Position numbers and translations under genes: made by a program. Below, in pieces: positions 1,654 to 24,254 of a stretch of 64,000 nucleotides of DNA (its first letter is position 1; the number at the start of each line of letters is the position of its first letter). The notes under the pieces are model-generated. The model saw only the letters and a list, made by a program, of their open reading frames with translations, did not search any database and was not told the origin of the DNA. Location: contig NZ_MVDE01000025.1 of NCBI RefSeq assembly GCF_002843385.1, forward strand, positions 1 to 64,000. Direction: 5' to 3'. This DNA is from Labilibaculum manganireducens. Lineage in GTDB: Bacteria > Bacteroidota > Bacteroidia > Bacteroidales > Marinifilaceae.

Positions 1654-4600
1654 TTACCAATCCTGCTTTTTATCTACATAATCGCTGAAGCTGTCAATTC
1701 CTAAATCTTCTATTGATTTTTTGCAGAATGAATAGATAAAGGCTGAAGCCAGACGAGCATTGGTTATTAATGGTATGTTCAGGTCGATGGCTGTTCTTCT
1801 GATCAGGTAATCGTTATTCAACTCCGATTTGCTTAAGTTTTTGGGGATGTTAATCACCAAATCAACTTTGCGCTCTTTAATTAAATTGTGAGCAGTCACT
1901 TCAACATCTTCATCAGGCCAACCTACACTTTCGATAGTAACACCGTTCTCTTCCAGGAATTTTGCAGTACCTCTGGTGCCATACAATTTGTGCCCTTTCT
2001 CTTCAAGCATCTTCGCACTTTTTAAAAGTTCCACTTTCGAGCGAATAGGACCACTGCTGATTAGGATTGCACTCTTCGGTATGCGGTAACCCACTGACAG
2101 CATTGCTTTTAGTATTGCATCGTAGTAATCAGCTCCTATGCAGCCAACTTCACCGGTTGATGACATATCTACACCCAAAACCGGATCTGCTTTCGACAAT
2201 CTTGAAAAGGAAAACTGAGAGGCTTTTATTCCAATATGCTCCAATTCGAACATCGAGGGTAAATTGTTTGGAATAGGAACATCCAACATTGCCTGAGTGG
2301 CAGTTTCGATAAAATTAAAGTCCATTACCTTCGAAACAAAAGGAAAACTTCTACTTGCACGCAGGTTGCACTCGATAACCTTAATGTCGTTATCTTTTGC
2401 CAGCAACTGCATGTTGAACGGCCCGGTAATGTTCAGTGATTTTGCTATTTTAGCGGCTATTTTACGAATTCTGCGAATGGTTTCGAAATACAGTTTTTGC
2501 GGTGGAAATACCAAAGTAGCATCTCCCGAATGCACTCCGGCAAACTCAACGTGTTCCGAAATGGCATCAATAATAATGTCACCATTTTTAGCGACTCCGT
2601 CAAACTCGATTTCTTTTGCTTCCTGAATAAATTCACTAACAACAACCGGATACTGTTTAGATACCTGCGCAGCTAAATCCAGAAAATGGCCTAATTCATC
2701 CTTGTTCGAAACCACATTCATTGCAGCACCCGAAAGCACATAACTTGGGCGAATCAAAACAGGAAATCCTACTTCATCAATAAAGTCATTAATTGCCTCT
2801 TTGCTTGTCAACTCATTCCATCTTGGCTGATCAATTTTCAATTCATCAAGCATGGCTGAGAAAGTCTGGCGGTTTTCGGCTCTGTCGATCGATTCAGGAG
2901 ACGTTCCTAACACTTTTACATCTGCCTTGTGCAAACGCATCGAAAGGTTCTGAGGAATTTGTCCTCCTACCGATACAATTACACCGCGGGGCGATTCCAA
3001 ATCGATAATATCCAAGACTCTTTCGAATGAAAGTTCATCAAAGTACAAACGATCACACACATCGTAATCGGTACTTACCGTTTCCGGATTGTAATTGATC
3101 ATTACCGACCGTAGTCCTTCTTTATTTACTGCGTTCAGCGCATTTACGCTGCACCAGTCGAATTCAACTGAAGACCCTATTCGATAGGCTCCGGAACCTA
3201 AAACAATAACCGATTGATTGTCGTCTGCATAAGTAATGTCATTTTCATCACCACTGTAAGTCAAATAAACGTAGTTGGTTTGTGCAGGATACTCTGCAGC
3301 CAATGTGTCAATTTGCTTAACAACCGGAACAATCCCTTTTGCTTTACGATGTTTCCTCACCTCTAAAAGCTCCGATTCCATATCAGTTCTCTCTGGCTTT
3401 AAAACAAAGCGTGCTAACTGGAAATCGGAAAAACCGTATACTTTTGCAGCTTTTAGTAAAGTGTCAGGTAATTCCTGTAAGTTATTGTATTTCTGAAGAT
3501 CCCATTTCAATTTTGTGATGTGTTCCAGCTTACTTAGGAACCATTTATCAATTTTGGTGAGATCATGAATTTTATCAATGGAATATCCTTTTTCAAAAGC
3601 TTGCGCGATAGAGAAAATACGCATATCTGTTGGATGAGTTAATTCCCGATCAACATCGTCGAACTTTGAATGAACATTCCCAACAAATCCGTGCATTCCC
3701 TGTCCAATCATACGCAAACCTTTTTGAACGGCTTCCTCGAAATTACGACCAACGGCCATTACTTCTCCTACACTTTTCATGCTGGAACCAATCTCTTTGG
3801 TTACACCTTCAAACTTGTTTAAATCCCAACGTGGAATTTTACAAACTACGTAATCCAAAGCAGGTTCGAAACAAGCTGTTGTTGTTTTTGTTACAGCATT
3901 CTTAAGCTCGTGAAGGGCATAACCCAAACCAAGTTTAGCCGCAACAAAGGCCAAAGGATAACCCGTTGCTTTTGAAGCCAATGCAGATGATCTTGATAAA
4001 CGGGCATTTACCTCAATTACACGGTAATCTTCCGAATTGGGATCAAGAGCGTACTGAACGTTACACTCACCCACAACACCAAAGTGACGAATAATCTTAA
4101 TTGCCAGTGATCTTAGTTTGTGATACTCCGAATTGGTTAATGTTTGCGATGGTGCAATAACAATACTCTCACCTGTATGAATTCCCAGCGGATCAAAGTT
4201 TTCCATATTACAAACTGTAATACAGTTGTCGTATGCATCCCGAACCACTTCATATTCTACTTCTTTCCATCCTTTTAATGATTCCTCAACCAATATCTGA
4301 CTTGAATAGGATAAGGCATTTTCAGCCAACTTCTCCAATTCTGCCATATTAGAACAGAATCCACTTCCTTGTCCTCCTAAAGTAAAGGCTGCACGAACAA
4401 TAATTGGAAAACCTAGTTTTTCTGCCGCTTTTAATGCTTCAGGAATCGATTCAACAGCAAATGACTGCGGGGTTTTTACATCGATTCCACGAAGTTCGTT
4501 GGCAAATATCTCTCTGTCTTCAGTTTTAATAATGGTCTCGATTGGAGTCCCTAAAACCTGAAGATTGTATTTCTTTAGCAATCCGGCATTAAAAAGCTGA

Positions 4601-4896
4601 ATACCACAGTTTAATGCAGTTTGTCCTCCAAAAGCCAAAAGGATTCCATCAGGCTTTTCTTTTAAGATCACCTGTTCTACAAAATAAGGTGTAACCGGCA
4701 AAAAATAAATTTGATCGGCAATTCCTTTTGACGTTTGTACAGTTGCAATATTGGGATTGATAAGTACCGTATAAATACCTTCCTCCTTCATTGCTTTTAA
4801 TGCCTGTGATCCAGAATAGTCAAACTCCCCTGCTTCACCAATTTTAAGTGCTCCGGAACCTAATACCAGTACTTTCTTTATGTTGTCTTTTATCAT
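1654..4896 (-). CDS. carB: Carbamoyl-phosphate synthase large subunit
   Basis: This subunit makes carbamoyl phosphate from bicarbonate, ATP and the ammonia channelled from CarA, for arginine and pyrimidine synthesis. I start it at the ATG at 4896, giving 1080 residues beginning MIKDNIKKVLVLGSGALKIG, the normal start of the family. The frame stays open to 5013, but the extra 39 codons translate an intergenic repeat. Visible parts are the first ATP-grasp half with GEAGEFDYSGSQA near the N-terminus and GGQGSGF further in, a second homologous half beginning VIVLGSGAYRIGSSVEFDWC, and a C-terminal MGS-like regulatory domain containing LYGTRGTAKFLEENG and LVINIP. Length and domain order are normal. 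It is the last gene of the arg operon, about 175 bases after carA. The GTTCTCC/GGAGAAC hairpin in that gap might tune its expression. Confidence 0.97.
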   Translation of the reverse strand: MIKDNIKKVLVLGSGALKIGEAGEFDYSGSQALKAMKEEGIYTVLINPNIATVQTSKGIADQIYFLPVTPYFVEQVILKEKPDGILLAFGGQTALNCGIQLFNAGLLKKYNLQVLGTPIETIIKTEDREIFANELRGIDVKTPQSFAVESIPEALKAAEKLGFPIIVRAAFTLGGQGSGFCSNMAELEKLAENALSYSSQILVEESLKGWKEVEYEVVRDAYDNCITVCNMENFDPLGIHTGESIVIAPSQTLTNSEYHKLRSLAIKIIRHFGVVGECNVQYALDPNSEDYRVIEVNARLSRSSALASKATGYPLAFVAAKLGLGYALHELKNAVTKTTTACFEPALDYVVCKIPRWDLNKFEGVTKEIGSSMKSVGEVMAVGRNFEEAVQKGLRMIGQGMHGFVGNVHSKFDDVDRELTHPTDMRIFSIAQAFEKGYSIDKIHDLTKIDKWFLSKLEHITKLKWDLQKYNNLQELPDTLLKAAKVYGFSDFQLARFVLKPERTDMESELLEVRKHRKAKGIVPVVKQIDTLAAEYPAQTNYVYLTYSGDENDITYADDNQSVIVLGSGAYRIGSSVEFDWCSVNALNAVNKEGLRSVMINYNPETVSTDYDVCDRLYFDELSFERVLDIIDLESPRGVIVSVGGQIPQNLSMRLHKADVKVLGTSPESIDRAENRQTFSAMLDELKIDQPRWNELTSKEAINDFIDEVGFPVLIRPSYVLSGAAMNVVSNKDELGHFLDLAAQVSKQYPVVVSEFIQEAKEIEFDGVAKNGDIIIDAISEHVEFAGVHSGDATLVFPPQKLYFETIRRIRKIAAKIAKSLNITGPFNMQLLAKDNDIKVIECNLRASRSFPFVSKVMDFNFIETATQAMLDVPIPNNLPSMFELEHIGIKASQFSFSRLSKADPVLGVDMSSTGEVGCIGADYYDAILKAMLSVGYRIPKSAILISSGPIRSKVELLKSAKMLEEKGHKLYGTRGTAKFLEENGVTIESVGWPDEDVEVTAHNLIKERKVDLVINIPKNLSKSELNNDYLIRRTAIDLNIPLITNARLASAFIYSFCKKSIEDLGIDSFSDYVDKKQDW

Positions 4897-4976
4897 TTTT
4901 CTTAAGCTGAGAGCCATTAGCTTATCGCTTTTGGCTGTTAATTGATAATTGTTTTTCTTTAAAAATACCCTCCTCT

Positions 4977-5008
4977 GTTCTCCGGACATCTCCCCTAAAA
5001 AGGAGAAC
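4977..5008. repeat. Inverted repeat between carA and carB
   Basis: GTTCTCC at 4977-4983 is the reverse complement of GGAGAAC at 5002-5008, with a CCCCTAAAAAGG-type centre. I recall similar GGAGATGTCCGGAGAACAGA intergenic repeats from other Bacteroidota genomes. Read in frame with carB it gives a false N-terminal extension. Confidence 0.6.
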
Positions 5009-5026
5009 CGCATACAGATGGGACTT

Positions 5027-5089
5027 TTTTAACTTTTACCTTTCTCCTTTTTACCTTTTACTTTTCTCCTTTTACCTTTTAACTTTATG
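5027..5089. repeat. Pyrimidine-rich simple repeat overlapping the end of carA
   Basis: The plus strand repeats ACCTTT(T)CTCCTTTTT-like units at least four times. On the coding strand this is AAAGGTAAAAGG. The carA stop codon (5072-5074) lies inside it, so the repeat has grown into the 3' end of the gene and encodes the KVKR tail. A similar purine-rich tract stands before mnmE at about 33,788-33,842. Confidence 0.65.
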
Positions 5090-6160
5090 ATCTTCCATCA
5101 TTTTAATGAAATCGTCGAACAGAAATTCGGTATCTGTAGGGCCACTGGAAGCTTCGGGGTGAAACTGAGACGCGAAAAATGGTTTGCTTGTGTGCTTTAA
5201 TCCTTCGCATGTGCCATCATTGGCATTAACAAACAATGGCTCCCACTCTTTTGGCAAGGTATCCATATTAATGGCGTACCCGTGATTTTGAGAGGTAATA
5301 AAACAACGCTTGCTTCCCTTTAAAACAACCGGCTGATTGTGACTACGGTGTCCGTACTTCAGCTTATAAGTATCAGCACCGGCAGCAAGAGCCATTAATT
5401 GTGTTCCCAGACAAATACCCATAATTGGTGTATCCTGACCAAAAACTGTTTTTAGATTGGCGATTGCTTTTGTATTTTGTTTTGGATCACCAGGACCATT
5501 GGATATAAATAATCCATCGTATTCTTCCTTAGTGAAGTCGTAATCGTGTGGAACTCTGATTACTGTGGTATCTCTTTTTAACAAACAACGAATAATGTTG
5601 TTTTTCACACCACAATCCAACAATACTACTTTGTGTTTTCCATTTCCGTAAACAATTTTTTCGGGTGTGCTTACCTGAGCTACAAGATTCTCCAGATTTG
5701 GATCTTTCCATTCAGGTTCTTTGCCTTCAAAAACAATTTTAGCAAGCATACTGCCTTGTTCCCGAAGTTTTTTTGTTAGTGCGCGGGTATCAACACCATA
5801 TATTCCTGGTATTTTATGTTGTTTCATCCAGTCACCAAGGCTTAAACTCGCATTCCAATGACTGAATTCCTCGGTATAATCGGACACAATAAATGCAGAC
5901 ACCTGAATTTTTTCTGACTCATAAAAACGAAACAAGTCGTCTTCCTGCAGTGTTCCCGGCACTCCGTAATTTCCAATCAGAGGAAAAGTACTAACCAGAA
6001 TTTGTCCGCGGTACGAAGGATCGGTTAAACTTTCCGGATATCCGGTCATTGCAGTATTAAATACCATTTCACCGGAAATGGATTCCTGGTAACCAAACGA
6101 TGTACCGATATATTCCGATCCATCCTGTAAAATTAATTTAGCTTTTGTCTCTCCTGACAT
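5072..6160 (-). CDS. carA: Carbamoyl-phosphate synthase small subunit
   Basis: This is the glutaminase subunit that frees ammonia from glutamine for CarB. It has 362 residues, normal for the family. The N-terminal CPSase small-chain domain contains VFNTAMTGYPESLTDPSY. The C-terminal class I glutamine amidotransferase domain has the nucleophile Cys in MGICLGTQLMALA and the His-Glu pair in SQFHPEASSGP. NGPGDPKQ marks the oxyanion region. It lies downstream of argH with a gap of about 100 bases that shows no terminator, so it is probably part of the arg operon. Joining carAB to the arginine genes makes carbamoyl phosphate supply respond to arginine, although pyrimidine synthesis also needs it. 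Confidence 0.97.
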   Translation of the reverse strand: MSGETKAKLILQDGSEYIGTSFGYQESISGEMVFNTAMTGYPESLTDPSYRGQILVSTFPLIGNYGVPGTLQEDDLFRFYESEKIQVSAFIVSDYTEEFSHWNASLSLGDWMKQHKIPGIYGVDTRALTKKLREQGSMLAKIVFEGKEPEWKDPNLENLVAQVSTPEKIVYGNGKHKVVLLDCGVKNNIIRCLLKRDTTVIRVPHDYDFTKEEYDGLFISNGPGDPKQNTKAIANLKTVFGQDTPIMGICLGTQLMALAAGADTYKLKYGHRSHNQPVVLKGSKRCFITSQNHGYAINMDTLPKEWEPLFVNANDGTCEGLKHTSKPFFASQFHPEASSGPTDTEFLFDDFIKMMEDHKVKR

Positions 6161-6259
6161 AAAAGTTCTATAAAATGGTTAATATTTTTAGTGATTAGTT
6201 ATGAATTGAAAGTATTCTGTATTTTCCAATGCTGATTACTCTTTACCAGTTACTTCTAT

Positions 6260-7597
6260 TTATATTCTATTCAGTAAGTTCATGTAAGCCTCTTTGGTTT
6301 TGTTGAAATTAAAACCAACGAAAATCTCATTCATCTTATCTACAATTTTATCATTGCATAAATTGCCGATACTGCCTTCGTGAACATGATTCACTTTACC
6401 TTCGTATTTGAAAGTACCTTCCTCCACAATTTGTCCGATCTTTTTGTAAGCATCCCGGAAAGGAACACCGTTAAGCACCATTTGGTTGACTTCCTCAACT
6501 GTAAACATGTACTTATAACGTTCATCCTTCAAAACCTCTTTATTGATTTTAACTTCGGAAAGCATGATTCGTGTCATTTCCAGACAAGCAATCATTTTAT
6601 CGAAAGCAGGCATAAAGAACTCTTTTGTTAGCTGATAATCCCTATGATATCCCGAAGGAAGATTTGATGTAACTGCCTGAATTTGTGCCGGCAACATCTG
6701 CAAAGCATTTGCATGAGCCCGAATCAACTCAAAAACATCAGGATTCTTTTTGTGAGGCATAATGCTGCTTCCTGTTGTTAATTCATCAGGAAAACTTAAA
6801 AAATTGAAGTTCTGACTGTTATACAAACAGGCATCCATAGCTAATTTTCCGATTGTCATGGCCATACTAGCTAGTGCAGAAAGAACGGTAAACTCCATTT
6901 TGCCACGCCCCATTTGTGCATAAACTACATTATAACTTAAATCTCTAAAACCTAGTAAGTCAGTAGTCATTTGTCTGTTTAACGGGAATGATGAGCCATA
7001 ACCGGCACCCGATCCTAATGGGTTCTGATTAACCACTTTGTAGGCAGCCTGCAGCACCATCATGTCATCGGTCAAGCTTTCGGCATAAGCACCAAACCAT
7101 AAACCGAACGAGGATGGCATAGCCACCTGTAAGTGAGTATATCCAGGAATTAATACATCCTTATTTTCATTACTCTTTGCAATCAACTCATCAAAAAGCA
7201 ATCTTCCTTCCCGAACAATTTCTTCCAGTTTGTTTCTTGTAAAAAGCTTTAAATCCAAAAGAACCTGATCGTTTCTTGATCGTCCGCTGTGAATCTTTTT
7301 TCCAATATCACCTAAAGCTAAAGTAAGCTGATATTCAATTTGAGAATGAACATCCTCAGTGCCATCATCAATCACAAAATCATTATTTTTTATCGAGGAA
7401 TAAATTTTCCGTAATTCTTCCTGAATCAATTTTAATTCTGTTTTTTCCAATAATCCGATGGATTCGAGCATTTCAATGTGTGCAAGCGATCCCAGCACAT
7501 CAAACGCGGCAAGCTGCAAGTCCAATTCGCGATCCATTCCAACAGTGAATTGTTCAATTTTTTTATCAACTTTTACGCCTTTATCCCAAAGTTTCAT
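6260..7597 (-). CDS. argH: Argininosuccinate lyase
   Basis: It splits argininosuccinate into arginine and fumarate, the last step of the pathway, in the cytoplasm. It has 445 residues, in the usual range. The fumarase/aspartase superfamily signature GSSIMPHKKNP is present. The second conserved region is HSGRSRNDQ near residue 105, and the third is GYTHLQVAMPSSFG. It lies about 76 bases after the argE-like gene on the same strand. All regions expected for activity are present. Confidence 0.96.
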   Translation of the reverse strand: MKLWDKGVKVDKKIEQFTVGMDRELDLQLAAFDVLGSLAHIEMLESIGLLEKTELKLIQEELRKIYSSIKNNDFVIDDGTEDVHSQIEYQLTLALGDIGKKIHSGRSRNDQVLLDLKLFTRNKLEEIVREGRLLFDELIAKSNENKDVLIPGYTHLQVAMPSSFGLWFGAYAESLTDDMMVLQAAYKVVNQNPLGSGAGYGSSFPLNRQMTTDLLGFRDLSYNVVYAQMGRGKMEFTVLSALASMAMTIGKLAMDACLYNSQNFNFLSFPDELTTGSSIMPHKKNPDVFELIRAHANALQMLPAQIQAVTSNLPSGYHRDYQLTKEFFMPAFDKMIACLEMTRIMLSEVKINKEVLKDERYKYMFTVEEVNQMVLNGVPFRDAYKKIGQIVEEGTFKYEGKVNHVHEGSIGNLCNDKIVDKMNEIFVGFNFNKTKEAYMNLLNRI

Positions 7598-7673
7598 AGT
7601 AATTCTCTTTAAAGTTAGGTGTTAGTGTATATTATTGCTTAATCCGTTTTATTTTTCAACAAGTGATTTCCGG

Positions 7674-8738
7674 TTATATTTTCAAACCGTTCAACAAGTT
7701 ATAATATTTTTCAATTCCTTTTTCAATTTCATCCATGTAGATGAACTCGTCAGCGGTATGAGATCTGGCCGAATCTCCGGGACCCAATTTTAAAGTTGGA
7801 AATCCCTTCATAATTGCCTGATCGGATGTGGTTGGAGAACCGTAATACTTCATTCCTAAGTTCAATCCTGTCTGAATTAACGGGTGCTCCAATGGTATTC
7901 CTGAAGAATTCATTCTAAAGGACCGGGCTGTAACATTACTTTCCAACTTTTCTTTGATGATTGCAAATGCTTTTTCGTTAGAATAATGCTCATTCGTGCG
8001 GACATCCACTACAAATTTGCAGGATGATGGAATTACATTGTGCTGTTTCCCTGCATTAATTTGTGTTACAGTCATTTTCACTGCTCCCAGCATCTCAGAT
8101 TCCAAAGCAAATTTATAAGAATGAAGCCATTCTATATCCCTCATTGCAATAGTTATTGCGTTGACACCCTCGTTACGGGCTGCATGTCCGGGAACACCGA
8201 TAGCATCACAATCCAGCACCATTAAGCCTTTTTCAGCGATGGCCATTTCCATAAGAGTCGGCTCGCCTACAATTCCAACATCAATTCGTCCTATTTCATC
8301 CTGTATCAGCTCAAAACCTCCGGTTCCTGATATTTCCTCTTCGGCAGAAGCTGCAAAAACACGGTTGTAATCTTGATCAGTGCCTTCCAAGGCTAAAAAT
8401 GATGCAAATAAAGAAACCAAACAGCCGCCTGCATCATTGCTGCCCAATCCGTACAATTTGCCCTCGGACACTTCCGGATTGAAAGGATCTTTTGTATACT
8501 TTTCAGAAGGTTTTACGGTGTCTAAATGAGAATTCAGCAACAAAACCGGCTTTTTATCATCAAAATCCTTATTGAAAGCCCATACATTATTTCCTTTGCG
8601 GTGTACCTGATATCCAAAGTCAGTTAGTTTCTGCTCCATTACATCGGCAGCTTGATTTTCCTGTTTACTGTAAGATTGAATAGAAATCAATTGCTTAAGA
8701 GTGGTTAAGGCTATTTCGGTATACTTTTTTAAATCCAT
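7674..8738 (-). CDS. argE: M20-family N-acyl-citrulline/ornithine deacylase (ArgE-like)
   Basis: This is a zinc-dependent M20 amidohydrolase of 354 residues. Visible metal and catalytic motifs are LLNSHLDTVKP (His and Asp), GLGSNDAGGCLVSL (bridging Asp), AASAEEEISG (general base Glu and metal Glu) and a late SHTADEFIYMDEIEKG (metal His). In Bacteroidota the carbamoyl group is generally added to N-acyl-ornithine, so this enzyme probably removes the acyl group (acetyl or succinyl) from N-acyl-citrulline just before argininosuccinate synthesis. Choosing between acetyl and succinyl is not possible from this sequence. It follows argB by only 3 bases, so the two are probably translationally coupled. 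The similar DapE is less likely given the neighbours. Confidence 0.9.
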   Translation of the reverse strand: MDLKKYTEIALTTLKQLISIQSYSKQENQAADVMEQKLTDFGYQVHRKGNNVWAFNKDFDDKKPVLLLNSHLDTVKPSEKYTKDPFNPEVSEGKLYGLGSNDAGGCLVSLFASFLALEGTDQDYNRVFAASAEEEISGTGGFELIQDEIGRIDVGIVGEPTLMEMAIAEKGLMVLDCDAIGVPGHAARNEGVNAITIAMRDIEWLHSYKFALESEMLGAVKMTVTQINAGKQHNVIPSSCKFVVDVRTNEHYSNEKAFAIIKEKLESNVTARSFRMNSSGIPLEHPLIQTGLNLGMKYYGSPTTSDQAIMKGFPTLKLGPGDSARSHTADEFIYMDEIEKGIEKYYNLLNGLKI

Positions 8739-8741
8739 AAG

Positions 8742-9521
8742 CTAAGAATTAACAATTTGTGTTCCTGAGGAATGATTTGTCTCCATCGAAACAAAATTCC
8801 CGATTACGACCTCTTCCACTCCTTTTGATAAGGCATAAAATGCATTTTGTGTTTTGGGCAGCATTCCTGTATTTATCTTGCCCGATTTCACCATTTCAGA
8901 GCATTTTACGTTAGAAAGAACAGGCATTACACTGCTGTCATCCTCCGCATTCATTAATACTCCAAGTTTTTCGAAACTATAAATCAATTTCACCTTATAG
9001 AAACGACTTAAAGCAACGGCTACTTCTGTTGCCACCGTATCAGCATTGGTGTTGAATAATTGTCCCTTGCCATCATGAGTAATCGGGGCAATAACCAAAA
9101 CCGAATTGCATTCAATTTGCTTGCATAAAGCCAGGGTATTCACTGCTGTAACATCACCAACAAAACCAAAATCGACCTTTGTGTTGCTTCTTTTTTCAGC
9201 TTTTATAAGATCTAAATCGGCACCACACATCCCCATCGCATTTACTCCACGAGCTTGTAAAGCAGCAACAATGTTCTTATTAATTAGTCCGGCATAAACC
9301 ATGGTAACCAACTTCAGGTTTTCGGCATCAGTTATGCGTCTTCCATCCACCATTTTGGTTTGAACTCCAAGTTTGCCTGCTAAATCGGATGCTAGTTTTC
9401 CACCTCCGTGAACCAAAACAATCTTGCCGTTTAAATTTGAAAATGCATCAAGAAAATCATTTAGTTTTTCGGTATCGTCAATTACGTTACCACCAATTTT
9501 TACAACAGTTAAATCTATCAT
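8742..9521 (-). CDS. argB: N-acetylglutamate (or N-succinylglutamate) kinase
   Basis: It phosphorylates N-acylglutamate, the second step of the pathway. It has 259 residues of the amino-acid kinase fold. The N-terminal VVKIGGNVI and VLVHGGGKLASDLAGKLG motifs bind ATP and substrate, and MVDGRRITDAENLKLVTMVYAG is the N-acylglutamate site. Its ATG overlaps the TGA of argD (ATGA, 9518-9521), so the two genes are translationally coupled. In Bacteroides fragilis the matching enzyme is reported to use N-succinylglutamate. Which acyl group is used here is unknown. Confidence 0.94.
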   Translation of the reverse strand: MIDLTVVKIGGNVIDDTEKLNDFLDAFSNLNGKIVLVHGGGKLASDLAGKLGVQTKMVDGRRITDAENLKLVTMVYAGLINKNIVAALQARGVNAMGMCGADLDLIKAEKRSNTKVDFGFVGDVTAVNTLALCKQIECNSVLVIAPITHDGKGQLFNTNADTVATEVAVALSRFYKVKLIYSFEKLGVLMNAEDDSSVMPVLSNVKCSEMVKSGKINTGMLPKTQNAFYALSKGVEEVVIGNFVSMETNHSSGTQIVNS

Positions 9522-10651
9522 ACCATTATAATTTGGGTTAGTTTTTGAAATGCTTGAATGAATTGATCCACCTCTTTTTTGGTAATTGAAAGTGGCGGCA
9601 GTAAACGAAGTGTTGTACTACCTGATGATCCTGTGAAAATTCCATATTCCTCAAGAAGCTGTTTCCTGATTTTAGGCATATCCTCAAGATCAATACCAAT
9701 CATTAATCCTTTCCCCCTTATTGCTTTTATTGCTTTATTATCTTTTAATTCAGAGATTAAATAATCTCCCAATCTGTCTGCATTATCGATTAACTGTTCT
9801 TCTTCGATTGCCTCTAAAACTGCCATTCCCGCAGCACATGCCAAATGATTTCCCCCAAAGGTTGTTCCTAACATTCCGCTCCATGCTTTTATTGCAGGTG
9901 AGATAATTACTCCGGCAATTGGAAATCCATTTCCCATTCCTTTAGCTGTAGTTATAATATCTGCCTTAATACCAGCATGCTGATGTGCGAAAAATTTCCC
10001 TGTTCTTCCATAACCCGACTGAATCTCATCCAAAATAAGCATTGCTTTGTGAGCTTTGCACAAGCTTTCGGCAGACTTCAAGAAATCAGCCGAAGGTTCT
10101 ACAACACCGTTCACACCTTGTATTCCTTCGATAATCACTGCAGCAACGTCATTTTTCCCAAGAGCTTTTTCAAGTGCAGGAATGTCATTCATCTCTATAA
10201 AAACAACGTCGTGTTTTACATTAAATTCTGATGATAAAACTGGATTATCGGTAATTGCCAAAGCACCACTGCTTCTTCCGTGAAAAGCTCCTTTAATTGC
10301 AACAATTTTCGATTTACCAGTGTGAAAAGATGCCACTTTTAGAGCATTTTCATTGGCTTCGGCTCCTGAGTTACACAAGAATAAGTTGTAATCATCGTAT
10401 CCTGAAAGTGTCCCCAATTTATTAGCCAATTTCTCCTGCATATCATTTCTTACAGCATTCGAATAAAAGCCTAAACAATGAAGTTGGTGCTCCATTCTGA
10501 AAATATAGTGAGGATGACTGTGACCAATTGAAATCACACCATGTCCACCATAAAAATCTAAATATTTATTTCCTTTATCGTCAGATATGCCTGATCCTTT
10601 CCCATTAACCAGGTTTATATCGTAACAATTATATACGTTAAATAATTCCAT
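9518..10651 (-). CDS. argD: Acetylornithine (or succinylornithine) aminotransferase
   Basis: This is a class III PLP aminotransferase of 377 residues. It transfers the amino group of glutamate to N-acylglutamate semialdehyde. LFLCNSGAEANENALKVA binds the PLP phosphate, IVAIKGAFHGRSSGALA is the usual next motif, MLILDEIQSGYGRTGKFF carries the Asp that contacts PLP, and ITTAKGMGNGFPIAG carries the lysine that forms the Schiff base. It starts 12 bases after argC and overlaps argB by 4 bases. In many Bacteroidota a carbamoyltransferase gene sits near argD, but here the overlap with argB leaves no room. Confidence 0.95.
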   Translation of the reverse strand: MELFNVYNCYDINLVNGKGSGISDDKGNKYLDFYGGHGVISIGHSHPHYIFRMEHQLHCLGFYSNAVRNDMQEKLANKLGTLSGYDDYNLFLCNSGAEANENALKVASFHTGKSKIVAIKGAFHGRSSGALAITDNPVLSSEFNVKHDVVFIEMNDIPALEKALGKNDVAAVIIEGIQGVNGVVEPSADFLKSAESLCKAHKAMLILDEIQSGYGRTGKFFAHQHAGIKADIITTAKGMGNGFPIAGVIISPAIKAWSGMLGTTFGGNHLACAAGMAVLEAIEEEQLIDNADRLGDYLISELKDNKAIKAIRGKGLMIGIDLEDMPKIRKQLLEEYGIFTGSSGSTTLRLLPPLSITKKEVDQFIQAFQKLTQIIMV

Positions 10652-10663
10652 TTCTTTCTTTTT

Positions 10664-11629
10664 TTAAAATCCAACCGGCTTTAAGCCCAATCCCAATATT
10701 TCCGGCATTCCAAATAATAAATTCATATTCTGAACTGCCTGACCAGAAGCCCCTTTCAATAAATTATCAATCACTGAAATAATCATCAGTTTGCTGCCAT
10801 GTTTTTCAAGATACAATACACATTTATTTGTGTTTACAACTTGCTTTACATCGGGCGATATATTTGATATTGAAACGAATGGATGATTTTTATAATATAT
10901 TTTGTACTTCTCAACAGCTTCTTCAGCAGACCAATCACAATCGGTATAGATTGTGGCCATTATTCCCCGGCTAAAGTTTCCTCTAACGGGAATAAAATTA
11001 ATTTCTTTATCGAAACTGGGTTGAAGTTGCAAAACCGTTTCTGTTATCTCAGCCAAATGCTGATGAGTAAATGCTTTGTATACCGAAACATTGTTGTTTT
11101 TCCAGCTAAAATGTGAAGTTGATGTTGGATTCTGTCCTGCTCCAGTTGATCCTGTTATTGCAGTAATATGAACCTCCTCCTTCAATTTATTTTCTTTAGC
11201 TAAAGGCAATAATCCCAATTCAATACAGGTAGCAAAACATCCCGGATTGGCTATTTTATCAGCATTTACAATTTTATCTTTATTAATTTCCGGTAATCCG
11301 TAAACAAAACCTTTTTCATTTGCTTTTGGTCTGAAATCAGTACTTAAATCGATAATTTTTACAGTCTCAGGCAAATTATTCTCTTCCAAAAACAATTTGG
11401 TCTTCCCATGTCCCGAACAGATAAACAAAACATCAATTGCCTTATAATCAGCTTCGGAAAATGACAAATCAGTATCCCCTAACAAATCCCTATGGACATC
11501 CGATACCGGATGTCCCATATGACTTGTACTCTGCACGAAACTGATATTTGCCTGCGGATGCCAAATTAAAATCCGTAACAATTCTCCCGCCGTATATCCT
11601 GCTCCTCCTATAATTCCTACATTCACCAT
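10664..11629 (-). CDS. argC: N-acetyl-gamma-glutamyl-phosphate reductase
   Basis: It reduces the acyl phosphate made by ArgB with NADPH. It has 321 residues and belongs to the shorter, type 2-like group. The N-terminal Rossmann motif is VGIIGGAGYTAGELLRIL. The active-site Cys is in ANPGCFATCIELGLLPL, and the catalytic His region is YKAFTHQHLAEI. It starts 2 bases before the argG stop region ends, so it is tightly packed in the operon. All motifs expected for activity are present. Confidence 0.95.
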   Translation of the reverse strand: MVNVGIIGGAGYTAGELLRILIWHPQANISFVQSTSHMGHPVSDVHRDLLGDTDLSFSEADYKAIDVLFICSGHGKTKLFLEENNLPETVKIIDLSTDFRPKANEKGFVYGLPEINKDKIVNADKIANPGCFATCIELGLLPLAKENKLKEEVHITAITGSTGAGQNPTSTSHFSWKNNNVSVYKAFTHQHLAEITETVLQLQPSFDKEINFIPVRGNFSRGIMATIYTDCDWSAEEAVEKYKIYYKNHPFVSISNISPDVKQVVNTNKCVLYLEKHGSKLMIISVIDNLLKGASGQAVQNMNLLFGMPEILGLGLKPVGF

Positions 11630-11631
11630 AA

Positions 11632-12831
11632 TTACTGCTTATTTACGGTGTAATAAATCTTCAATGAATTAGCCAGAATATTGGTAAATCCTTTTGCATC
11701 ATCTGCTGTCCATCCTTTACTGCTTTCGCCGTACTGACCAAATAAATCAGTCATTAAGTCGTTGGGTGAAGTAATGCCTTCAACAAAGAAATGTTTTGGA
11801 TTCAAATTTAAAATAACTGTTCCTGTCACCTTTTTTTGAGTGTCAAGAAGGAAAGTCTCCATGTTTCTCATTACCGGCTCTAAGTACTGAGCTTCGTGTA
11901 ACAACATTCCATAGAAATTTGCAATTTGCTCTTTCCAGTGCATTTGCCATTTGGTAAGCGTGTGCTTTTCAAGAGTTTGATGAGCTTTAATAATCATTAA
12001 AGGCGCAGCAGCTTCAAATGCAACCCTTCCTTTTGTTCCAATAATTGTGTCACCAATGTGCATGTCTCTTCCAATGCCAAATTGAGAACCAATTGCTTCA
12101 ATTTTTTTAATTGCATCCAAAGGATGTTGTACTTTTTCTCCATTCACACTAACCAATTCTCCCTTTTCGAATCCTATGGTCAGCTTTTCCGATTCGGTTT
12201 TAACAACCTGTTTTGGATAGGCATCTTCCGGAAGAGGTTGATCTGAAGTTAAAGTTTCTTTTCCGCCAATACTTGTTCCCCAGATTCCTGCATTAATGGA
12301 ATATTTCATTTTTTCGAAATTGGCCGAAATACCATTTTCTTTCAGGTAATTGATTTCTGTCTCCCTGCTCAACTGCATATCTCTGGTTGGAGTAATGATT
12401 TCGGCATTGGGAGCCATTATTTTAAAAATAAGATCAAATCTTATCTGATCGTTACCAGCTCCGGTACTACCGTGAGCGATATAATCAGCATCAATGGAAT
12501 GGGCATATTGAGCAATTGCCATGGCTTGAAATGCTCTTTCTGAGCTTACCGACAATGGGTAGGTGTTGTTTTTTAAAACATTTCCCATTATCATGTATTT
12601 AATGCATTTATCGTAGTATTCTTCGGTAATATCAAGTGAGGCGTGCTGAACAACTCCCAGTTGTTTTGTCCTGTTCTCTATATCAGCTAATTCTTCCTTG
12701 CTGAAACCACCTGTATTACCCAATACTGTGTACACATCCATGTTTAACTCCTTAGACAAATAAAGTGCACAGTATGTTGTATCTAAACCTCCGCTATATG
12801 CTAATACTACTTTTTTCTTAGTTGATGTCAT
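11632..12831 (-). CDS. argG: Argininosuccinate synthase
   Basis: It joins citrulline and aspartate with ATP. It has 399 residues, normal length. The PP-loop is VVLAYSGGLDTTYCALYL near residue 8. The region YIAHGSTGAGNDQIRFD is the citrulline/ATP-binding segment. It is the second gene of the operon, 70 bases after the acetyltransferase gene, with no terminator or extra leader ORF between them. In this acyl-citrulline type of pathway it acts after the ArgE-like deacylase. Confidence 0.96.
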   Translation of the reverse strand: MTSTKKKVVLAYSGGLDTTYCALYLSKELNMDVYTVLGNTGGFSKEELADIENRTKQLGVVQHASLDITEEYYDKCIKYMIMGNVLKNNTYPLSVSSERAFQAMAIAQYAHSIDADYIAHGSTGAGNDQIRFDLIFKIMAPNAEIITPTRDMQLSRETEINYLKENGISANFEKMKYSINAGIWGTSIGGKETLTSDQPLPEDAYPKQVVKTESEKLTIGFEKGELVSVNGEKVQHPLDAIKKIEAIGSQFGIGRDMHIGDTIIGTKGRVAFEAAAPLMIIKAHQTLEKHTLTKWQMHWKEQIANFYGMLLHEAQYLEPVMRNMETFLLDTQKKVTGTVILNLNPKHFFVEGITSPNDLMTDLFGQYGESSKGWTADDAKGFTNILANSLKIYYTVNKQ

Positions 12832-12900: not shown

Positions 12901-13470
12901 TTACTTTTTATCCTTTCTATTGGGATCATACAGCATGCCTGTACACAAACACATTTTCCGATTGGTTCGCTGCAATATGTCGTAATTCACACAACCACTG
13001 CATCCTTTCCAAAATGTATCATCTGTAGTTAGCTCCGAAAAGGTAACTGGTCTGTATCCTAATTCTGAATTGATTTTCATTACAGGAAGACTGGTGGTGA
13101 GTCCAAATATTTTGGCTTCAGGATAACGTTTTTGCGATAGCTCGAATGCCTTGGCTTTAATCATTTTAGCCAAACCTACAGCTCTGTAATCAGGATCAAC
13201 AATTAGTCCCGAATTAGCTACATATTTACCATGTTCCCAGGTTTCTATATAACAGAAACCAATAACTTTATCCTGATCAAAGGCGATAATTGCCTTTCCT
13301 TCCTGAATTTTTTGTACGATGTACAAAGCTTCTCTTTTAGCAATTCCGGTACCGCGGATTTTCGCAGCACTTTCAATCATATCACAAATTTCCTGGGCAT
13401 ATTCGTAATGCCTTAAACCTGCTATAATGACACTTAATTTTTGCTCAATTTCCATTGAAGTATCTATCAT
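12901..13470 (-). CDS. GNAT acetyltransferase, probable N-acetylglutamate synthase, with C-terminal Cys cluster
   Basis: It has 189 residues and is the first gene of the arg operon. Residues 10-145 look like a GNAT fold: IIAFDQDKVIGFCYIE is the beta4-beta5 region and LIVDPDYRAVGLAKMIKAKAFEL holds the acetyl-CoA loop (here R-A-V-G-L-A, close to R/QxxGxG/A). Its position and the lack of argA and argJ in the cluster suggest it makes N-acylglutamate, the first step. Residues 157-176 add Cys157-x2-Cys160-x13-Cys174-x-Cys176, a spacing that could bind zinc or an iron-sulfur cluster. I recall the same tail in related Bacteroidota proteins. The start at 13470 lies 15 bases after the stop of leader ORF 4. 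Met6 is an alternative start. Confidence 0.8.
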   Translation of the reverse strand: MIDTSMEIEQKLSVIIAGLRHYEYAQEICDMIESAAKIRGTGIAKREALYIVQKIQEGKAIIAFDQDKVIGFCYIETWEHGKYVANSGLIVDPDYRAVGLAKMIKAKAFELSQKRYPEAKIFGLTTSLPVMKINSELGYRPVTFSELTTDDTFWKGCSGCVNYDILQRTNRKMCLCTGMLYDPNRKDKK

Positions 13471-13485
13471 TTTATTTTAAATAAT

Positions 13486-13626
13486 CTAAATTTCCCAAAA
13501 AAGTGCTACTGCTGTTAAGCACAACCACCTGTTATTTAATTCTACAAAAAAATCCGCTCTTGCGGTCTGATTGTTTTGTTCCCGAAAACAGCGTCTTCGA
13601 TAGTCTAAGGAGTTGAAAAAATTCAT
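13486..13626 (-). CDS. Arginine leader peptide 4 (46 residues, unusual)
   Basis: It begins MNFFNSLDYRRRCFREQ, with CGA AGA CGC at residues 10-12 and more Arg at 15, 23 and 33. Unlike the others the ORF runs through two hairpin-with-U-tract candidates (13545-13565 and 13497-13522) and stops only 15 bases before the acetyltransferase ATG. Either it works by another geometry (ribosome transit opening the hairpin, or translational coupling to the first structural gene), or a frameshift has extended a once shorter leader. Confidence 0.62.
   Translation of the reverse strand: MNFFNSLDYRRRCFREQNNQTARADFFVELNNRWLCLTAVALFWEI
13497..13522 (-). terminator. Attenuator hairpin 4b, end of leader ORF 4
   Basis: On the minus strand GTGCT, a 10-base loop, AGCAC, then six T. 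Its distance from the Arg triplet (about 69 bases) matches units 1-3, so it may be the true fourth terminator. The stem is only 5 pairs. Confidence 0.5.
13547..13565 (-). terminator. Attenuator hairpin 4a, inside leader ORF 4
   Basis: On the minus strand CCGC, loop AAGA, GCGG, then A and seven T. The stem is short but GC-only. It lies only about 26 bases after the Arg triplet, closer than in the other units. Confidence 0.55.
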
Positions 13627-13647
13627 TTTTTTATTTTTAATTAATAC

Positions 13648-13680
13648 AAAAAAAGCTTACCGTCCGAAAACAGTAAGCTT
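13648..13680 (-). terminator. Attenuator terminator 3
   Basis: On the minus strand AAGCTTAC and GTAAGCTT form an 8-pair stem around TGTTTTCGGACG, followed by a run of T (7 including stem-end bases). It lies about 66 bases after the leader 3 Arg codons and 6 bases after its stop. Confidence 0.8.
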
Positions 13681-13685
13681 GTTAA

Positions 13686-13787
13686 TTATGATATTTCAAT
13701 AACAGAAACAGCAAGCTCATCCGTTCCCCCTGGGTAACAGTTACTACGCAAATGGCGTCGGCTTTGAGTATAGATGATTTGCTTCAT
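13686..13787 (-). CDS. Arginine leader peptide 3 (33 residues)
   Basis: It begins MKQIIYTQSRRHLRSNCYPG, with Arg at residues 10, 11 and 14, and ends VSVIEIS before TAA. TGAGCTTG inside the ORF (antiterminator arm, about plus 13712-13719) can pair over 8 bases with CAAGCTTA of hairpin 3. That is the best antiterminator of the four units. A ribosome stalled at the Arg codons would leave this arm free, while one that reaches the stop would cover it. Confidence 0.78.
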   Translation of the reverse strand: MKQIIYTQSRRHLRSNCYPGGTDELAVSVIEIS

Positions 13788-13811
13788 TTCTATTTGTGAT
13801 TATATAGTTTC

Positions 13812-13848
13812 AAAAAAAAGGCTTACCGGTAAAAACGGTAAGCCTTTT
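13812..13848 (-). terminator. Attenuator terminator 2
   Basis: On the minus strand a perfect 9-pair stem, GGCTTACCG/CGGTAAGCC, extended by AAAA/TTTT, followed by eight T. It is the strongest hairpin of the series. Because of the AAAA/TTTT flanks it could also work on the plus strand. Confidence 0.85.
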
Positions 13849-13863
13849 ATATATTGCTGTTAA

Positions 13864-13950
13864 TCATTGATTACAAGACAATACGACACCAACCGCTTTT
13901 CCTAAAGGAGCGCTCTGTCTTCGTCGTTGTATGTTGTAAAATAAAATCAT
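13864..13950 (-). CDS. Arginine leader peptide 2 (28 residues)
   Basis: It begins MILFYNIQRRRQSAPLG, with three consecutive Arg codons (CGA CGA AGA, residues 9-11), and ends LSCNQ and TGA. GGAAAAGC within the ORF (plus 13895-13902) can pair with GCTTACC of hairpin 2 with a small internal mismatch, a weak antiterminator. The stop codon lies 20 bases before the 5' arm of hairpin 2, as in classical attenuators. Confidence 0.78.
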   Translation of the reverse strand: MILFYNIQRRRQSAPLGKAVGVVLSCNQ

Positions 13951-13979
13951 TTGATGTTTTTTTCTGTTGTTTCAAGTTC

Positions 13980-14008
13980 AAAAAAAATGCTTCCCGATAT
14001 GGAAAGCT
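13980..14008 (-). terminator. Attenuator terminator 1
   Basis: On the minus strand GCTTTCC, loop ATATC, GGGAAGC (7 pairs including one G-U) then A and eight T. It lies about 58 bases after the Arg codons of leader peptide 1. Confidence 0.72.
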
Positions 14009-14038
14009 TGGAAAATTAAATATGCCAGAGCTTATACC

Positions 14039-14095
14039 TTATCGTTTGGATAAAGATCTAATAAAGCGTCGTCGAATAATTTGTAAATTTTCCAT
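14039..14095 (-). CDS. Arginine leader peptide 1 (18 residues)
   Basis: The translation is MENLQIIRRRFIRSLSKR. It has three consecutive Arg codons (CGA CGA CGC, residues 8-10) plus two more Arg, so 5 of 18 residues are Arg. The stop is followed by AAGCTCTGG (plus 14025-14033). That can pair, with one bulged base, with CCAAGCTT in the 5' arm of hairpin 1, giving an antiterminator. The peptide itself probably has no function beyond sensing tRNA-Arg charging. Confidence 0.78.
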   Translation of the reverse strand: MENLQIIRRRFIRSLSKR

Positions 14096-14117
14096 ACCTG
14101 TTCTTATTTGTTGCCTA

Positions 14118-14125
14118 CAAAGATA
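14118..14125 (-). promoter_or_regulatory. Probable -7 element of the arg operon promoter
   Basis: TATCTTTG on the minus strand fits the Bacteroidota TAnnTTTG consensus exactly. Transcription would begin near 14,111, about 16 bases before the first leader ORF. The -33 region is poor: only TTAGG at about the right distance. Confidence 0.6.
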
Positions 14126-21438: not shown

Positions 21439-22881
21439 TTATGGATTTAAACTGGAATTAGTTTGATCTACTGTTGCACTATTTCCAATACCATACTGCA
21501 TTACTACACTTGAATGTCCATAACCTGACTGATATACATCAGCAGTATTGCCTGATCCATCCTGCGCAATTCCAGAATAATTGTAATCTCCAACCTGAGT
21601 AACTATTGCAAAATTATTGTCTCCGTTGTATTGAAGAACAACAGATTCGCTTAATTCACCATCCTGGAAAACATCAGCAACAGAATTTGTTACATTTTCT
21701 TGTAGGATACCTGAATAGTTACCATAACCATATTGCTCTATTATTGCAAGGTTTCCACCGCCACCAAACTGATAAGTTTCGGTATAATTCATTGTTCCAT
21801 CCTGTAATACTGAAATAGTGTTGTTCTCACCACCAACTTGTTCTGTATAAGAAAAGTTATCATCACCAATCTGGTAAACTTCTGCCAAATTTCCTTCGCC
21901 GCGAATTTGTTTCATCATTACAGTATTTCCATCGCCTGCCTGCTCTGCGTATGCTTCGTTATCAAAACCTTTTCTTTGAATAGCTGTGGCTTTATTGAAA
22001 TCACCATTTTGAACCAAACCGGCCCAATTAGATTCTCCCTTAATTTGTTTAATAGAAGCATCATTAGCATAACCAATCTGCGCGATACCTGCATAGTTAT
22101 CCTCTCCTTTTACCTGTGTAATTTTACCGTAGTTCCAGTCTCCTAACTGACCAACATAAGCACGATTCATAACACCGCCATACTGATTTACTATTGCAGT
22201 ATTACTATTCTCATATTGTTCAACTTCGATAGAATTGCCTTCGCCACCCATTTGAGTTGTAAATGCCCAATTATCTTCACCTTCTTGTGTAACGTAAGAA
22301 GAATTACCTATTCCATTAGCCTGATATACATCGGCTAAATTAAAGGATCCTGTTTGAATAACACCAGCCCAATTACTCTCATTACCGTATTGTCTTATTC
22401 TAGCTTGATTTGCAAAACCATCTTGAATAATTCCGGCAAAATCAAGAGAACCATTTGCCTGATCAACTTTAGCCCAATTAGAATCTCCAAATTGGTTTAT
22501 TAAAGCCTCTGACCATAAATTGTTCACTTGCTCAACATACGAGATGTTAAAATTACCATCTTGAAGTACATTTGCAATATCCCACACACTACTTTGATAT
22601 ACAGAGGAGAAATTCAAGAATCCGTATTGCTCAACGTAAGCTTCTACCCAAACACTATTAATCTGATTAATAAAAGAAGAATTTAAATCGCCTAACTGAG
22701 TAGCTGAAGCAATATTTAATTCTCCGGATTGATTTATTTGACTGTAATTCCAAACACCTACCTGATCAACTGTTGCTTCTTGATCTGTTCCAAATTGTTG
22801 TATTTCAGAAACATTTTGTTGAGCAAAAGATGCTGCTGCAGTAAAAACTACAGCGACCATAATTAACATTACTTTCTTCAT
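21439..22881 (-). CDS. Secreted curlin-repeat (functional-amyloid-like) protein
   Basis: It has 480 residues. Residues 1-20 are a signal peptide (MKKVMLIMVAVVFTAAASFA). The rest is about 20 copies of a 21-23 residue repeat with spaced Gln, Gly, Asn and Gln, such as QIGYANDASIKQ or QTGSFNLADVYQ, like the curlin repeats of CsgA and CsgB. Curlin strands stack into a beta-solenoid that polymerises as extracellular amyloid in biofilms. The protein is much longer than CsgA (about 150 residues) and is rich in Trp, Tyr and acidic residues. No csgE, csgF or csgG homologue is in the window, so any secretion genes must be elsewhere. It is transcribed alone with its own terminator. Export by another route is possible. 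Confidence 0.85.
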   Translation of the reverse strand: MKKVMLIMVAVVFTAAASFAQQNVSEIQQFGTDQEATVDQVGVWNYSQINQSGELNIASATQLGDLNSSFINQINSVWVEAYVEQYGFLNFSSVYQSSVWDIANVLQDGNFNISYVEQVNNLWSEALINQFGDSNWAKVDQANGSLDFAGIIQDGFANQARIRQYGNESNWAGVIQTGSFNLADVYQANGIGNSSYVTQEGEDNWAFTTQMGGEGNSIEVEQYENSNTAIVNQYGGVMNRAYVGQLGDWNYGKITQVKGEDNYAGIAQIGYANDASIKQIKGESNWAGLVQNGDFNKATAIQRKGFDNEAYAEQAGDGNTVMMKQIRGEGNLAEVYQIGDDNFSYTEQVGGENNTISVLQDGTMNYTETYQFGGGGNLAIIEQYGYGNYSGILQENVTNSVADVFQDGELSESVVLQYNGDNNFAIVTQVGDYNYSGIAQDGSGNTADVYQSGYGHSSVVMQYGIGNSATVDQTNSSLNP

Positions 22882-24177: not shown

Positions 24178-24254
24178 TCTGTTTTAATTTTAAAGAAATA
24201 GCTTACCTACTCTATTAAGGATTTTCGGCAACCTCCTTTCGTTAGAATTTCTGA

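Follow-up and report, generated by a model that had tools for sequence, protein, structure and literature searches.

How is the arginine biosynthesis operon of Labilibaculum manganireducens regulated, and what is the function of the long leader in front of it? The window, as we call the whole stretch of 64,000 nucleotides analysed here, carries this operon on the minus strand, with a GNAT acetyltransferase (12901..13470; Pfam Acetyltransf_1, E 2.7e-6) as the first structural gene, followed by argG-like, argC, argD-like, argB, argE-like, argH, carA and carB genes (1654..12831). The GNAT protein of the window matched no NCBIfam family and presumably takes the role of N-acetylglutamate synthase. 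A leader of ≈0.65 kb separates the GNAT gene from a -7-like promoter box, TATCTTTG (14118..14125, minus strand), of the type TAnnTTTG, which we take to be the -7 promoter consensus of Bacteroidota. An earlier note on this DNA had described the leader as four serial Arg-specific attenuators. This is supported for units 1 to 3, in which Arg codons, terminators, pairings and a modelled switch were found, and not for unit 4, the terminator of which is not conserved. The leader probably consists of three serial arginine leader-peptide transcription attenuators and a conserved upstream open reading frame (uORF) beside the first arg gene.

Some further features of this genome are recorded here. The arg operon of the window is without a carbamoyltransferase; the genome encodes two OTCace_N proteins (L207 on G000:C29 and L208 on G000:C1), one located after a 334-aa carbamate-kinase-like ORF and one PyrB-like (names assigned by eye), and no Arg-cluster leader was found before either gene. 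The minus strand of the window also contains a match to the Rfam DUF805b RNA (24204..24238, 50.3 bits) and codes for a 480-aa Q/G/N-rich repeat protein with a curlin-type look, as judged by eye (21439..22881).

All four short minus-strand ORFs with clustered Arg codons that the earlier note had listed were found in place. They comprise, including their stops, the leader ORFs of unit 1 (MENLQIIRRRFIRSLSKR, 14039..14095), unit 2 (MILFYNIQRRRQSAPLGKAVGVVLSCNQ, 13864..13950) and unit 3 (MKQIIYTQSRRHLRSNCYPGGTDELAVSVIEIS, 13686..13787) and the uORF of unit 4 (MNFFNSLDYRRRCFREQNNQTARADFFVELNNRWLCLTAVALFWEI, 13486..13626), which has the Arg cluster RRRCFR and a TAG stop and is present in 22 loci of the window's family and in one locus of another family (L199). 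Such a number of Arg-rich ORFs is not expected by chance: when the 660-nt leader was shuffled 2000 times with preservation of dinucleotides, ATG-initiated ORFs of 8–60 aa with at least three Arg in five codons were missing in 1787 shuffles, occurred once in 202 and twice in 11, compared to four in the real leader. One ORF on the opposite strand of the leader passed the same threshold. CGA accounts for 7 of the 17 Arg codons in the four leader ORFs versus 16 of 217 in 12 coding sequences of the window, and over 21 loci its share of the Arg codons is 0.56 in unit 1, 0.75 in unit 2 and 0.41 in unit 3. Such a bias would be expected if slow codons had been chosen. RR or RRR clusters of units 1 to 3 precede the arg operon in 22/22 family loci. 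The leader scans used ATG starts and the first in-frame ATG, by which some ORFs were hidden or lengthened (e.g. ORF4 of L009) and were later recounted; for unit 3 of L009 the recount gave an overlapping frame, and the ORF itself is visible in, and was taken from, separate scans. Searches of ORF2 to ORF4 against Pfam and NCBIfam yielded weak matches alone, far under the family cut-offs.

The promoter box has the same position throughout the family: either TATCTTTG or TACATTTG is located ≈22 nt 5′ of ORF1 in all 22 loci (L001–L022). A promoter inside the array had been named as an argument against serial attenuation. We see no sign of one: when the 850 nt before the GNAT gene of the window were scanned for TAnnTTTG, the TATCTTTG box, which precedes every unit, was the single match.

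Intrinsic terminator stems followed by U-runs are present for units 1 to 3 in all 22 loci. In the window they are formed by AAGCTTTCC and GGGAAGC in unit 1 (13981..14009; stem −8.5 kcal/mol), by AAAAGGCTTACCG and CGGTAAGCCTTTT in unit 2 (13809..13848; core stem −15.8 kcal/mol) and by AAGCTTACTG and CGGTAAGCTT in unit 3 (13648..13680), all on the minus strand, with 100%, 99.5% and 98.0% of the alignment cells paired over 20–21 distinct rows. Structure counts and folds refer to 21 loci (L003 and L011, which are close to L002 and L010, were omitted and L118 was included), in which the stem energies range from −7.3 to −9.2, from −13.3 to −18.3 and from −9.0 to −14.7 kcal/mol for units 1, 2 and 3, respectively. 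The unit 1 terminator of L001–L011 was missed by the energy scan and was located by pattern. ORF3 reads through its own terminator in four of the 22 loci (L012, L013, L015 and L017). The claim that each ORF is accompanied by a hairpin and a U-run is thereby confirmed for units 1 to 3; the hairpin of unit 4 lies within the ORF and is found in 7/22 loci.

Each of these terminators faces a competing helix. The antiterminator of unit 1 (14004..14033) pairs AAGCTCTGG (14033–14025) with CCAAGCTT (14011–14004) and has 86.4% of cells paired in 20 distinct rows; that of unit 2 (13831..13900) pairs AAAAGCGGT (13900–13892) with ACCGTTTTT (13839–13831), with 90.0% in 21 rows, and that of unit 3 (13669..13725) pairs AACGGATGAGCTTG (13725–13712) with CAAGCTTACTGTT (13681–13669), with 96.9% in 20 distinct rows. 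Unit 3 additionally has a region 1:2 hairpin of CTGTTACCC and GGGAACGG (13721..13740; 90.0% of cells paired). All of these lie on the minus strand. A 1:2 helix can be drawn for unit 2 as well. Of the antiterminators proposed earlier, those of units 1 and 3 are possible as described; for unit 2, the pairing of which had been called weak, a better partner was found, with AAAAGCGGU pairing to ACCGUUUUU. Control helices slid along the alignment were 18–66% paired for the antiterminators and 14–71% paired when the terminators and the 1:2 hairpin of unit 3 were included. Base changes within the helices are largely one-sided, e.g. from G-C to G-U. Two-sided changes were restricted to one pair in one row each for the unit 3 antiterminator and the unit 2 terminator and to one pair in five rows for the unit 3 1:2 hairpin, and there were none in the antiterminators of units 1 and 2 (20 and 21 rows). 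Only the unit 3 1:2 hairpin stands out against column shuffles, none of 500 reaching its covariation score; for the other helices the observed score was reached by 45 to 500 of 500 shuffles, and covariation therefore provides little proof of these helices.

The tail of the unit 2 ORF is kept as RNA, with a pN/pS of 0.84 in frame and similar values in the other frames (pN/pS values were determined from nine of 20 aligned loci). Unit 3 is mixed: its peptide core SRRHLRSNCYP.G.DE is invariant in nine alignment rows (pN/pS 0.18), one Ser codon being AGT in some loci and TCG in others, yet part of the same bases builds the 1:2 and 2:3 helices.

The dependence of these structures on ribosome position was modelled by masking a ribosome footprint codon by codon and scoring the pairing of the terminator 5′ arm in a transcript ending before the 3′ arm. 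With the Arg codons in the A site, mean sequestration of the 5′ arm was 0.84, 0.81 and 0.92 in units 1, 2 and 3, versus 0.63, 0.52 and 0.59 with the ribosome at least six codons further on; the difference amounted to at least 0.15 in 13, 20 and 17 of the 21 loci. Units 2 and 3 thus show the switch of the partial transcript most strongly, and unit 1 shows it less strongly, with mixed results between loci; it is absent from unit 2 of L012 and from unit 3 of L021 and L022. When the upstream sequence of eight loci was shuffled 60 times each, the switch of unit 2 was reached by 0–3 shuffles in seven of the eight loci and by 49/60 in L012, and that of unit 3 by 0–2 in all seven loci run (without L022). 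Values for unit 1 ranged from 0 to 23 of 60 over the eight loci, and several of these loci did no better than their shuffles (L001 11/60, L014 12/60, L016 23/60). As controls, partial transcripts of Escherichia coli trpL gave 0.7–0.8 at the key codons and 0.0 afterwards and those of thrL dropped from ≈0.6 to ≈0.0 past the key codons; the hisL control failed, showing no change by the same measure.

Full-length transcripts folded at equilibrium behave differently. With the ribosome on the Arg codons, the terminator probability never fell below 0.5 in 16, 17 and 11 of the 21 loci (units 1, 2 and 3); in the other 5, 4 and 10 loci it dropped under this value at one Arg codon or more. Averaged over the later codons, the terminator was formed in 21/21 loci for each unit and lost in none; losses in full-length folds occur at the Arg codons or farther upstream and not, on average, after them. 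Since the terminator persists in the full-length equilibrium folds of most loci, a kinetic mechanism is needed there, and we prefer the partial transcripts because they are closer to the order of events during transcription.

Unit 4 is probably of another kind. Its conserved C-terminus NNRWLCLTAVALFWEI (13486..13536, minus strand; consensus NN[KR]WL.LT[AG]VALFWE) ends 15 nt before the ATG of the GNAT gene of the window. Over nine loci, the last 15 codons of ORF4 have a pN/pS of 0.08 in frame versus 1.78 and 1.75 in the other two frames, and the preceding 12 codons have a value of 0.56. Twelve positions do not vary among eight rows including L199, the stop is TAG in 20/20 aligned loci, and the distance from the stop to the GNAT ATG is 7–17 nt. 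Conservation at the level of the peptide, as is expected of a ribosome arrest peptide, is thus found in ORF4 by both its pN/pS and its 12 invariant residues, and from its sequence the ORF4 peptide is a candidate for an arrest peptide that has not been described. The ORF4 stop would be near enough to the GNAT start for termination-reinitiation or for a block of initiation by a stalled ribosome, and we think that unit 4 works on GNAT translation, via coupling or via nascent-peptide arrest.

Could unit 4 nevertheless be a classical attenuator of the same kind as the other three, with its terminator within ORF4 or at its end? The Arg cluster of ORF4 is present in the rows read, and both hairpins with their U-runs exist in the window. 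However, the internal hairpin named in the earlier note (CCGC/GCGG plus AT7) occurs in 7/22 loci, all of them from the window's own genus, the hairpin at the ORF4 end passed the energy scan likewise in 7/22, and the C-terminal codons change synonymously, so that we regard four units of one kind as unlikely. A fourth terminator unit was accordingly rejected, since neither terminator is conserved and the C-terminal peptide is selected instead; unit 4 is more likely a peptide-type uORF, as judged from the sequence comparison. It might also be argued that one or two units are functional and that the remainder are leftovers of duplication. The weak modelled switch of unit 1 in several loci and the similar terminator cores of units 2 and 3 would agree with this, but all three terminators and Arg clusters have been retained in 22/22 loci of six genera, which makes relics quite improbable.

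Two other explanations dispense with leader-peptide attenuation. Direct binding of arginine by the RNA as a tandem riboswitch, with the ORFs being incidental, could draw on the strong RNA conservation in parts of units 2 and 3; it leaves the CGA-biased Arg clusters unexplained, and neither the leader of the window nor 10 related loci matched any Rfam family at gathering scores, for which reason a known riboswitch was set aside. We consider this explanation very improbable. The short terminated transcripts or the leader peptides might also function in trans, as has reportedly been found for peTrpL. Peptide conservation in ORF3 and ORF4 would agree with this; the ORFs, however, stand in tight register with the terminators and with the GNAT start, and action in trans appears scarcely probable. 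We retain the reading of three serial attenuators followed by a conserved uORF.

GNAT is present in 43 of 56 genomes of the window's family. The alignment of relatives that the earlier note had called for showed that the four ORFs and the three terminators are kept in all 22 GNAT-positive genomes of six genera (L001–L022); one genome of an array genus (G037, 80% complete) had no GNAT match. Marinifilum (L118) and Ancylomarina (L119) are named representatives. In the closest named relative, Labilibaculum euxinus, GNAT is 99% identical and the leader stretch is identical to L004. The array is absent from L023–L030, i.e. from 8 of 21 GNAT loci in other genera of the family, two of which have just 213 and 89 nt of upstream sequence. 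Partial versions exist outside the family: L086 of family f63 carries a pair of Arg-leader units with terminators and lacks ORF4. In L199 an Arg-containing ORF precedes each of two terminators, and a clear relative of ORF4, MEFYINHQPHRRNTGKTGKSLAEFTVELNNKWLSLNAVCLFWET, ends 15 nt before the GNAT gene. A profile of the ORF3 peptide scored strongly for the window's genome alone in an order-wide draw of 295 genomes. The ORF4 profile (draws of 295 and 393 genomes) scored strongly, among the 393, just for the window's genome and for G350, the source of L199 (E 1.2e-21). The window's family is sparsely represented in these draws, and other matches to the two profiles had E-values of 0.001–0.1. A plasmid search with the leader gave zero matches.

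Leaders of other types were observed upstream of GNAT in more distant genomes. A second class in Flavobacteriia and others has one Arg-rich ORF that ends in RRRP and a stop (e.g. ...RPFTSRRRRP) and is mostly located ≈70–90 nt before GNAT (L126, L133, L134, L142, L144, L155, L157, L164, L183, L187, L190 and L194). L126 and L128, the latter with an ORF ending in VRRFFPRPLGL, share a similar stretch with AGGTGAGTCC downstream of the ORF; Rfam gave no match in L126, L128 or L133. Two Arg-rich leader ORFs precede GNAT in L128 (Tenacibaculum) and in L123, e.g. MHTNNKTNQITVRRRPNGRR and one ending in DSITRVRRFFPRPLGL. Most Flavobacterium GNAT leaders (e.g. L154) have a TAnnTTTG box ≈336 nt upstream, and the scan found no Arg-rich ATG-initiated ORF in them.

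How do the array genera compare with their relatives in the arginine repressor ArgR? None of the 23 genomes from the six array genera gave a match to the Pfam ArgR domain, compared with 24 of the 33 genomes from elsewhere in the family. Nine family genomes outside the array genera are also without ArgR (seven of them 64–84% complete, G033 94% and G055 97%), and the association of array and missing ArgR may thus partly reflect descent. In G350 (82% complete) the search for ArgR gave no match. G221, the source of L086, has two GNAT copies, L086 after the two-unit attenuator leader and L203 near argR on a different contig; two operons or a contamination are possible. Of 109 loci scanned (29 order-level and 80 named), 17 have an argR-like ORF of 153–174 residues with TQATLSR, presumably a motif of ArgR, whose 3′ end lies no more than 132 nt before the GNAT match. 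All 17 are order-level loci (17/29), and these 29 are the best-scoring portion of 78 GNAT-positive genomes; the first 60 residues were tested for four of the 17 ORFs and matched ArgR in all four. The array therefore occupies the place that argR has in many relatives of the order. In the ArgR-bearing genera of the window's own family, argR was not beside GNAT in the places listed. The array apparently stands in for ArgR.

The mechanism that we propose draws on computational results, namely conservation, terminators, pairings, the modelled ribosome switch, peptide selection and the lack of a detectable ArgR. At low levels of charged Arg-tRNA a ribosome would stall in the CGA-rich stretch of a given unit; region 2 would then pair with the emerging 5′ arm of the terminator and RNA polymerase would continue to the next unit. 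If Arg-tRNA is charged, the ribosome would advance, region 2 would be covered or paired with region 1, and the terminator would form, presumably resulting in premature termination at each unit. With three such gates one after another, repression would be multiplied; unit 4 would add its own action on GNAT translation, and the whole leader would perform the job that ArgR has in relatives. An ordinary His leader of a single unit, MKFTAIHHHHHYTYQPVS, and a strong terminator precede hisG in this genome (L209, G000:C3), which supports the use of the mechanism in the organism studied here. More tentatively, the leader may be a hybrid cascade that replaces ArgR, in which three attenuators sense tRNA charging and the ORF4 peptide arrests or hands over the ribosome before GNAT in response to arginine or an intermediate. 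If so, arginine supply would be gated at transcription and, separately, at the translation of the first enzyme.

Leader-peptide attenuation is customarily described as one switch per operon. The trp, thr and his leaders of E. coli resemble the array in having an ORF with codons for the end product, a competing antiterminator and an intrinsic terminator before a biosynthetic operon, and the modelled switch of trpL and thrL is the same as that of the array units. They differ in having one unit per operon, in contrast to three units for the same signal and a conserved-peptide uORF. The speF leader RNA of Salmonella is said to shift its conformation with arginine, as the array presumably responds to it; unlike the array, it reportedly controls polyamine synthesis and is apparently a single leader.

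In mgtCBR of Salmonella, two leader ORFs likewise act on a single transcript, and one of them senses an amino acid by tRNA charging; according to the parts of the report available to us these tandem attenuators respond to two different signals and are termed a singular example, genes for nutrient biosynthesis normally being under a single attenuator (PMC3641672). The responses of the two ORFs to ATP and proline are additive (PMC3641672); the array has no fewer than three ORFs, apparently for one and the same signal. In Staphylococcus aureus rbfL, as far as the text available to us describes it, ribosomes paused on rare Arg codons obstruct the ribosome binding site of the next gene (PMC13009471). 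This arginine-sensing leader ORF may serve as a model for unit 4; it differs in acting as one translational unit ahead of a regulator gene and in repressing at low arginine (PMC13009471). Within the same phylum, a Flavobacterium transcriptome study speaks of 'strong clues' that amino-acid operons are preceded by leader-peptide attenuators, and its accessible part does not mention a serial arrangement (PMC9723704). A survey of premature terminators lists, in the portion at hand, rimP with a second terminator in tandem (PMC2965389), and serial units are not mentioned in the accessible parts of two other papers (PMC4833913 and PMC4997734). In the open-access literature searched we recognised no description of serial leader-peptide attenuators for one signal, nor of an arrangement like this one in front of an arginine operon.

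A further counterpart is the ArgR repressor itself (PF01316). Both have the same target operon and the position just upstream of GNAT in common; ArgR is a DNA-binding protein, unlike the RNA array, and is not found in the array genera. A conserved series of switches for the same signal in genera with no detected repressor, at the place where relatives have argR, suggests that control by RNA, with a wide range, may have replaced a protein repressor.
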